64,000 nucleotides of DNA, taken from contig CP070651.1 in NCBI GenBank assembly GCA_020354625.1, forward strand, positions 3,010,239 through 3,074,238. Direction: 5' to 3'. Position 1 is the stretch's first letter, and each line of letters opens with the position of its first letter. A program made the translations under genes and the position numbers. This document shows positions 34,156 to 37,500 of this stretch, piece after piece. The notes below the pieces were generated by a model. That model was not told the DNA's origin. It worked only from the letters and a program-made list of their open reading frames with translations, and did no database searches. This DNA is from Trueperaceae bacterium. Its GTDB lineage: Bacteria; Deinococcota; Deinococci; Deinococcales; Trueperaceae.

Positions 34156-34239
34156 AGTATATGCAGGTTCGCTATAGGATGTAAAGCGAAAATGCAACGG
34201 TGGCGCAAATAAGCTGCTTCCGCCACCGATCACCTACAG

Positions 34240-34515
34240 GCGTTGACGGGAACGAGTACATCTCAAAACTGCCACCAGCGAGCCGATGTTGGTGTGAGAT
34301 CGGCGGCAAGTCGAGATGGAAGATCCTCCCCGAGCCGCCCCCCGAAAGGTCCACTTTGCAAGTCCGAGTAGGCGGGGCCGTGTGACGTGCGTGACAACGT
34401 CAAACTTTCTCGTAGGGGAAGTTGCTGAGGTCTTCGACCGAAAGGCGGAGATGGAGTTGGGTGGTACCGCGCTGCTTGCGCCCCGACACGTTACGGTGCT
34501 TGGGGTCTTTTCTTT
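34240..34515 (+). ncRNA. T-box riboswitch leader of ileS, isoleucine-type
   Basis: The conserved T-box word GGGTGGTACCGCG lies at 34459-34471. GGG-(TGGTACC)-GCGC pairs with GCGCCCC to make the antiterminator with its seven-base bulge. Stem I shows AGTA (34255-34258) facing GAA (34319-34321) across the stem CATCTC/GAGATG, the usual loop-E part of the specifier loop, and ATC (34323-34325, an Ile codon) follows. A competing hairpin with a T-rich tail lies downstream. Uncharged tRNA-Ile would pair with the ATC and the bulge and so permit transcription of ileS. Confidence 0.88.
34481..34515 (+). terminator. Attenuator terminator of the ileS leader
   Basis: CCCC-GA-CAC and GTG-CT-TGGGG form a hairpin followed by TCTTTTCTTT. 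Its 5' arm shares CCCC with the antiterminator, so the two structures exclude each other. Confidence 0.85.
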
Positions 34516-34536: not shown

Positions 34537-37500
34537 ATGTTTAAAGAAGTACCTGCAGGTGTACAATTTCCGGCCTTGGAACAGCGAATCATCGCATTTT
34601 GGCAGAACCGTGATATCTTCGGAAAATCGATTGTGAAGGAGGCACCTCGGGGGAACTATACCTTTTATGAAGGTCCTCCGACCGCCAACGGAAAACCGGG
34701 GGTCCACCATGTGATTAGCCGCGCCTACAAGGATCTGTTCCCCCGCTTCAAGACGATGCAGGGATACCGCGTGGGACGCAAAGGCGGTTGGGATACACAT
34801 GGACTTCCAGTCGAGATCGCCATCGAAAAGCGTCTCGGGTTCACGAGCAAGACACAGATAGAAGACTACGGAATCGAGCAGTTCAACGCGCTGTGTCGGG
34901 AGTCGGTGTTCGAAAACATTCAAGACTGGAACAAGATGACCGAGCGCATCGGCTTCTGGCTCGACCTCGAACACGCCTACATTACCTTTGAAAACAGCTA
35001 TATCGAATCGTGCTGGTGGGTGATGAAAGAGCTCTGGAAGAGAGGACTCTTGGTCGAAGATTACAAGACCACCTGGCACAGCCCGAGCAGCAATACTACG
35101 CTGGCGTCCCACGAAGTTGCGCTCGGCTACCGAGAAGACGTCGAAGATCCTTCTGTCTACCCGAAGTTCCCGGTCGAGCGGGAAAGCCTTTTGGACAGAG
35201 GCATTATCGATTCAAAAGAGACTCGCCCCGTCTTCCTGATGGCCTGGACCACGACCCCTTGGACGTTGGCAGCCAATACCGGCCTCGCCGTCTCCGCCGA
35301 GGCCGATTACGCCTTGGTTGCGGCTTCAGCCCACTACGGCGAGACAGGGAGCGACCACCTCTACATATTGGCAGCTCCTCTTTTGGAAGACGTCTTCGGC
35401 GAAACGCCTTTTGAACGTCTCGCCACGTTCAAAGGGCGTGCTCTCGAGGGCCTCCGCTACGACCCCATCCTGAAGGGGAGGGTGGAACCCGGTGAGGATA
35501 TCGAAAAGGGTTGGCGTGTGGTCGTCGATGAGTTCGTCAGTCTAGAAGACGGCACCGGTATCGTCCACCTAGCTCCGGCTTATGGGGATCTCGATCTCGG
35601 TCGAAAACACGGCCTCCCAACCCTCTTCTCAGTCGATCTTTCTGGCCTGGTCTATCCAGAGGTAAAACCGCTCGACCGAGCGGAAAGAGACGGGCCCTAT
35701 GCGGGACAGTGGTTCAAAGATGCCGATCCATCGATCGCACGAGATCTCATGGAACGAGGACTCCTTTTTAGGGAAACGACCATCTTGCACGCCTACCCGT
35801 TCAACTGGCGTGACGGAACACCGCTGCTGAGTTATGCCAAGCGGAGTTGGTACATCCGCACCACTGCCGTCAAGGACAAGCTGCTGGCGAACAACGATCG
35901 GATCAACTGGTACCCCGATCACATCCGCACCGGCCGCTTCGGACGGTGGCTCGAGAACAACGTCGATTGGGCTCTGTCGAGAGAGCGTTTCTGGGGCACA
36001 CCACTCCCCATCTGGGTGAGCGAGGATGGCGAGCAACACTGTGTCGGGAGCGTGTCTGAGCTCGAAGAGTTGACCCAACGAGATTTGAGCGGCCTGGAGT
36101 TGCATCGACCCTACGTCGATGAGATCACGTTTTCCAAAGAGGGCAAAGTGTTCAAGCGCGTCCCTTACACAGTAGATGTCTGGTTTGAGTCAGGCGCCAT
36201 GCCCTATGCCCAGTGGCACTTTCTAGGCGACGCCAGTAACGAAGATGTACGAGGCGCGTTCAGGGACAACTTTCCAGCCGACTACATCTGTGAAGCGATC
36301 GATCAGACGCGCGGATGGTTTTACAGCCTTCACGCGCTCGCCACGCTCCTCACCGACAGCGGCAACGGTTCGGGTGAGCGCTCACCCGGACCAATCGCCG
36401 ACATCGCAACGGACACAAGTGCCTTTAAAAACGTCATCGTTCTGGGGCATATCGTGGACGAAAAGGGCGAAAAGATGTCCAAGTCGAAGGGGAATGTCGT
36501 CGATCCCTGGAGCGTTCTCGACAGCCAGGGAGCCGATGCGCTCAGGTGGTACCTTTATAGCTCTTCCCCACCGGAAAGCACCAAACGCTTTTCTCAGAAC
36601 CTCGTTGAGGAAACGCTTCGCGATTTTTTCATGACGCTCTGGAACACCTATAGTTTCTTCGTTCTCTACGCCAACCTCGATAACCCGGATCTAAAACGCT
36701 CTCCCCCGGTACACCAGAGGCCTGATGTCGATCGGTGGTTGATCGCCAAGGTTCATCGTCTCGTTTGGGACGTAACAGAGTCGTTAGAGAGGTACGACCC
36801 AACCAGCGCCAGCCGGACGATACGCGATTTCGTGGTGGATGAACTCAGCAACTGGTACGTGCGTCGCAACCGGCGCCGTTTCTGGAAGTCGGCGAACGAC
36901 GCCGACAAAGCGGCAGCCTACGCATCCCTCTATGAGGTTCTGATAACCGTGTGCAAGCTCATGGCTCCCATGGCGCCTTTTGTCAGCGAAGAACTCTATC
37001 AAAATCTGGTACGGAGTCTCGACCGAGGAGCACCCGAGTCTGTTCATCTCACGACCTGGCCACGGTACGACGAAGCGCTGATCGATGATGACCTGATACG
37101 CGATATGAAAGCCCTCGTTCGGGTCGTCGAGCTGGGTAGAAGCGCTCGGGCGGCCTCAGGCATCAAGACCCGGCAACCGCTACCCGAGGTGCTCGTGCGG
37201 GTCAGGAGTGAACCCGAACTCGCAGGGCTCAAACGTCTTGAGGCTCATCTACTGGAGGAATTGAACGTCAAATCAGCACGCTACCTCGACGTCGCCACCG
37301 ATTTTGTGGAATACGACGTAAAGCCGAACCTTCCTCGAATCGGCAAGCGCTTGGGCAGGCTCGTACCGGTTCTGCGCAAGGCCTTGGCAGAGATCTCGGG
37401 CAAAGATATCGCCAAGAACGTTCGCGAGGGCAGAGAGACAATCATCGAACTCGAAGGGGAGCAGCACGCCTTCGAACCCGAAGCATTTCTGCTTGACGCA

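Follow-up and report, generated by a model that had tools for sequence, protein, structure and literature searches.

A type 2 isoleucyl-tRNA synthetase with a GVHH signature motif and a T-box leader in a Trueperaceae bacterium

The window analyzed here is a stretch of 64,000 nucleotides from the genome of a Trueperaceae bacterium (Deinococcota), which is assembled as a single contig of 4.29 Mb with a completeness of 97.6%. It carries an ileS gene and, upstream of it, a leader of the T-box type (Table 1). The gene encodes the only isoleucyl-tRNA synthetase (IleRS) of the genome, the remaining matches being other class I synthetases with HxGH motifs of their own. Among the best 80 matches to the window protein, the nearest named relatives were Truepera and Trueperaceae MAGs, at 64–70% identity. 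In a separate observation, a leuS-like class I synthetase gene was found twice in the same genome (G000:C1), at approximately 415 kb (L005) and at 4108 kb (L007); the copies, of 2949 bp, are 99.5% identical, and one has a shorter open frame (611 vs. 842 aa).

Table 1. Features of the ileS locus, in positions of the window.
Feature	Position	Strand	Basis or detail
T-box leader RF00230, isoleucine type, upstream of ileS	34234..34488	+	Rfam, 96.7 bits against a gathering score of 93, E 5e-20
AUC (Ile) specifier codon in Stem I, context GGAAG-AUC-CUCCCC-GAG	34323..34325	+	Position in Rfam alignment
T-box sequence GGGTGGTACCGC of the antiterminator, UGGU pairing with ACCA of uncharged tRNA-Ile	34459..34470	+	Rfam alignment, direct reading
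Candidate competing terminator hairpin and T-run, 5' strand GCCCCGAC common to the antiterminator	34480..34515	+	RNA fold, sequence
ileS, type 2 isoleucyl-tRNA synthetase, 1102 aa	34537..37845	+	TIGR00392, Pfam, nearest structures IleRS2
GVHH signature motif, residues 55–58 (G55 V56 H57 H58)	34699..34710	+	Codons GGG GTC CAC CAT
KMSKS motif, canonical, residues 646–650	36472..36486	+	

The ileS product scored 891.1 bits against the TIGR00392 ileS equivalog model (cut-off 621.4) and contains the Pfam domains tRNA-synt_1, Anticodon_1 and DUF5915. In phmmer comparisons, it reached 923 and 798 bits with the type 2 enzymes (IleRS2) 1ile and 8c8w, vs. 292 and 273 bits with the type 1 enzymes (IleRS1) 8c9f and 1ffy. 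A structure prediction from the single sequence gave a pLDDT of 33.7, and an alignment-based AlphaFold model with a mean pLDDT of 92.4 was used instead. When this model was submitted to Foldseek, Priestia megaterium IleRS2 and 1ile ranked first, followed by eukaryotic enzymes and then by IleRS1. Sequence scores, profile search, tree and fold comparison all agreed in grouping the enzyme with IleRS2 and not with IleRS1, as the earlier note on this DNA had proposed. An acquired resistance gene of the MupA/MupB type was ruled out by the scores against NF000257 and NF000258 (728 and 749 bits, respectively), which lie below the cut-off of 1900.

The same note had read GVHH at residues 55–58 in place of the HxGH signature, and both the codons and the HMMER register confirmed this. 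The segment PGVHHV of the window protein aligned over PHVGHA of Thermus thermophilus IleRS (1ile), GVHH fell on the HVGH of P. megaterium IleRS2 (8c8v), and the match to PGVHHA of the engineered GVHH mutant 8c8w was column for column. Since two conserved blocks, EGPPTANG-P adjacent to the motif and GWDTHGLPVE further downstream, were in register with the references, GVHH is the signature motif, and a frame error or misregistered motif was ruled out by the alignment. The note had also asked whether a canonical HxGH might lie elsewhere in the N-terminal domain; none was present when the protein was aligned to the IleRS references 1ile, 8c8v and 8c8w. In the AlphaFold model, GVHH is located at the tip of a helix (residues 56–74) that takes the place of helix α-1 in solved IleRS2. 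The G/AXHH subclass is characterized by Gly or Ala as the first and His as the third residue of the HxGH signature, as seen in GVHH, together with a canonical KMSKS, which is present at residues 646–650. As judged from its sequence and the predicted model, the window ileS product is an IleRS2 of this known subclass.

A further observation concerns Cys residues. The Cys of the CPRC...CWRC motifs of T. thermophilus IleRS, which we take to be zinc ligands, correspond to S182, S185, N423 and D426 in the window protein (35080–35091 and 35803–35814), and a second Cys cluster (columns around residues 492–540) is likewise absent. The SSND combination is shared by most Trueperaceae, with CCCC kept in four of those sampled; on the tree the Cys clusters changed at least four times, with no tie to the GXHH motif.

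The T-box upstream of ileS, under whose control the earlier note had placed the gene, was borne out by an RF00230 match above the gathering score and by the AUC specifier; AUC does not vary among the leaders aligned from Trueperaceae and from other Deinococcota. In comparison with known ileS T-box leaders, that of the window is alike in its Stem I with AUC, Stem II, IIA/B region, UGGU antiterminator bulge and candidate terminator, with no essential difference. The sequence GCCCCGAC is contested by the antiterminator 5' strand GUUGGG and by the candidate terminator, as seen by direct reading and RNA folding. The terminator hairpin (34480–34506), which is followed by a T-run, is putative and was named from its position, the U-run and its competition with the antiterminator; the fold of the region was no more stable than that of shuffled sequences, and a simple terminator scan listed nothing. 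T-boxes on ileS of Deinococcus radiodurans and Chloroflexi were reported in 2008 (PMC2494555). The same element also precedes Thermus-type ileS genes with the canonical HVGH, and T-box control is therefore independent of the motif swap.

A strong IleRS match was obtained in 108 of the 111 genomes searched across the phylum, almost always as a single gene. Among 32 Trueperaceae genomes whose N-terminal IleRS sequence was inspected, 30 (29 relatives and the window genome) have G(V/I/L)HH; this conservation rules out chance or an assembly error as the origin of GVHH. The two exceptions, ALHH in G021 and HYGH in a divergent gene of G003 (36% identity), are likely gene replacements or bin contamination. 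The ALHH enzyme (L136) groups with the AMHH clade, and the HYGH gene (L135) encodes an IleRS2 with no T-box detected upstream. Elsewhere in the order, families f2 and f3 have GIHH or GVHH and f5 has AMHH, while family f4 comprises a Meiothermus-like genus with AMHH and a Thermus-like genus, the only group with HVGH (genus labels inferred). Outside the phylum, GXHH was found in all close relatives sampled (Chloroflexota, Actinomycetota MAGs, Zixibacteria and certain Gammaproteobacteria), but because this sample is made up of the best 80 matches to the window query it is biased towards GXHH and gives no frequency among all IleRS2. Two further sequences stood apart. A Ktedonobacter genome (G120) has two IleRS with GVHH, the second of which (L153) is very divergent, has a T-box-like sequence upstream and may represent the minor IleRS2 clade of Brkic et al.; and an IleRS2 (L139, genome G226) from the same order as the Pseudomonadales record L034 has HHGN in place of HxGH, the fourth-position His being replaced by Asn.

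In a tree computed after removal of the motif columns, the HVGH group of Thermus type was nested inside GXHH with 100% SH-aLRT, and AXHH formed one clade. Since the method was fast, used no mixture model and had to accommodate long branches (L153, IleRS1), these are the only two features of the tree relied on. Given this nesting and the presence of the motif in nearly every relative sampled, the sequences indicate that G/AXHH is an old inherited trait of the clade, derived from an ancient GXHH ancestor.

The effect of the motif on mupirocin binding has been worked out with two-way motif swaps and crystal structures (Brkic et al., 2023; PMC10485003), a study that bears out the statement of the earlier note that extreme mupirocin resistance has been described for IleRS2 with a GxHH exchange. 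There, 86 of the 163 IleRS2 sequences had G/AXHH. The third-position His clashes with mupirocin, and the swap is permitted in IleRS2 by a shift of helix α-1 and is not accepted by IleRS1. The D. radiodurans IleRS2 (ALHH) has a mupirocin Ki of 6.6 mM, of which 823-fold is lost on motif reversal, and engineered GVHH raised the Ki approximately 200-fold or more, to 0.46 mM in P. megaterium IleRS2 and 35 µM in T. thermophilus IleRS2 (PMC10485003). The D. radiodurans enzyme resembles that of the window in phylum, IleRS type, His at motif position 3 and ile T-box (PMC2494555), but its motif starts with Ala-Leu vs. Gly-Val, and its Ki is measured whereas that of the window enzyme is inferred. The laboratory mutant 8c8w has an identical motif, position and fold, although it derives from a canonical enzyme. 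The closest solved sequence is T. thermophilus IleRS (1ile; 50% identity), an IleRS2 from the same phylum, which differs in its canonical HVGH (a reversion), its Ki of 0.2 µM and its retained Cys clusters. Streptomyces griseus IleRS2 (SgIleRS; PMC4861432, PMC10485003) also has a non-canonical motif and a Ki in the mM range (PMC10485003), but belongs to the distant phylum Actinomycetota and is likened to the window enzyme by published description. A literature search on Truepera and mupirocin gave nothing relevant.

Starting from the observed motif, enzyme type, sole copy, clade-wide conservation and T-box with AUC, we consider it very probable (about 0.93) that the window gene encodes a housekeeping G/AXHH IleRS2 with normal tRNA-Ile charging, whose inherited motif makes it hyper-resistant to mupirocin and whose expression is T-box-controlled; catalysis, the steric clash and the Ki are taken over here from published work on close relatives. 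By analogy with these relatives, the enzyme would charge tRNA-Ile in the ordinary way. The His at the third motif position would clash with mupirocin and yet, owing to the shift of the motif helix in IleRS2, be compatible with ATP. The enzyme should therefore be hyper-resistant, with an expected Ki between high-micromolar and millimolar values. Resistance would then be inherent in the active site, as in the measured enzymes. Its level presumably depends on the enzyme background, since engineered GVHH gave only 0.46 mM and 35 µM, and the Ki of the window enzyme may lie below the millimolar range. From what is known of the T-box family, uncharged tRNA-Ile would raise ileS transcription.

Why the motif arose is a separate matter. 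The swap may be a neutral or catalysis-linked alternative state of the IleRS2 active site, with resistance as a by-product, a proposal that we regard as plausible while giving it somewhat less than an even chance. It would account for the persistence of the motif over very long times across phyla on the tree, for the good kinetics of the D. radiodurans ALHH enzyme (kcat 45.5 per s) and for the reversion to HVGH in the Thermus-type group, which was also described within the Deinococcus-Thermus clade by Brkic et al. (PMC10485003). However, the same authors inferred that the motif was gained independently at least twice, and engineered swaps lowered activity by up to 10-fold (PMC10485003); both points speak for an advantage when the motif was acquired.

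The earlier note had suggested instead that the motif reflects exposure of this lineage to mupirocin-like compounds, with T-box control as part of the response. Induction of a T-box is expected once an inhibitor leaves tRNA uncharged, and the ileS leader would be induced in this way by uncharged tRNA-Ile. In relatives, the motif indeed confers resistance (PMC10485003). Nevertheless, it is inherited, almost fixed in the family, common to Chloroflexota and other Deinococcota, and old on the tree, and T-boxes also lie upstream of HVGH ileS in Thermus-type genomes and have been on record for ileS of Deinococcus and Chloroflexi since 2008 (PMC2494555). The suggestion thus found no support and appears improbable; recent lineage-specific selection is largely refuted by the near-fixation and the tree, while a mupirocin-like compound may have exerted selection in ancient times, when the clade originated. 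The catalytic importance of the first His in other class I enzymes (PMC10485003) might point to a broken signature motif and hence to a degenerate or moonlighting synthetase. This is hardly credible for a full-length protein with an intact KMSKS and more than 100 invariant columns, given the activity of close relatives that carry the swap; a pseudo-enzyme is refuted by the lack of any other IleRS in the genome, a single contig with a completeness of 97.6%.

The most unusual side observation concerns scattered Gammaproteobacteria MAGs, including a complete chromosome (L034), in which the only IleRS detected is encoded by a GIHH ileS2 gene under T-box control. T-box leaders with AUC were located upstream of the gene at L034:3121-3404, L019:1648-1899, L036:1953-2179, L037:3221-3451, L025:3187-3450 and L017:3168-3438. 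The leaders also have a terminator; all six tested gave E values of 1e-9 to 9e-17, but remained under the Rfam gathering score. Genes of the window type occurred in only 2 of 146 and 6 of 59 genomes of the respective orders, most others having IleRS1-type matches, and this rarity suggests that the T-box-controlled ileS2 probably replaced IleRS1 by horizontal transfer. No description of such a replacement in Gammaproteobacteria was found among open papers. We tentatively propose, at not quite even odds, that GXHH ileS2 is passed from phylum to phylum along with its T-box, as a ready-made substitute for IleRS1 that regulates itself and resists mupirocin, and that this has happened in several Gammaproteobacteria, a class with hardly any reports of T-boxes. 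In those that rely on GIHH IleRS2, the enzyme is predicted to be hyper-resistant to mupirocin, and the RNA regulator would be uncommon among Gammaproteobacteria.

The effect of the motif was already described in 2023, and the window adds nothing to that mechanism; the finding supplies extra Trueperaceae sequences for the lineages with the swapped motif and is of little importance alone. In most Deinococcota sampled, G/AXHH is the inherited state and not a sign of recent drug exposure. The sampling makes two tests easier, namely of the route that the double swap, which affects the most highly conserved catalytic sites, took through inactive intermediates and of the reason for the Thermus-type reversion.
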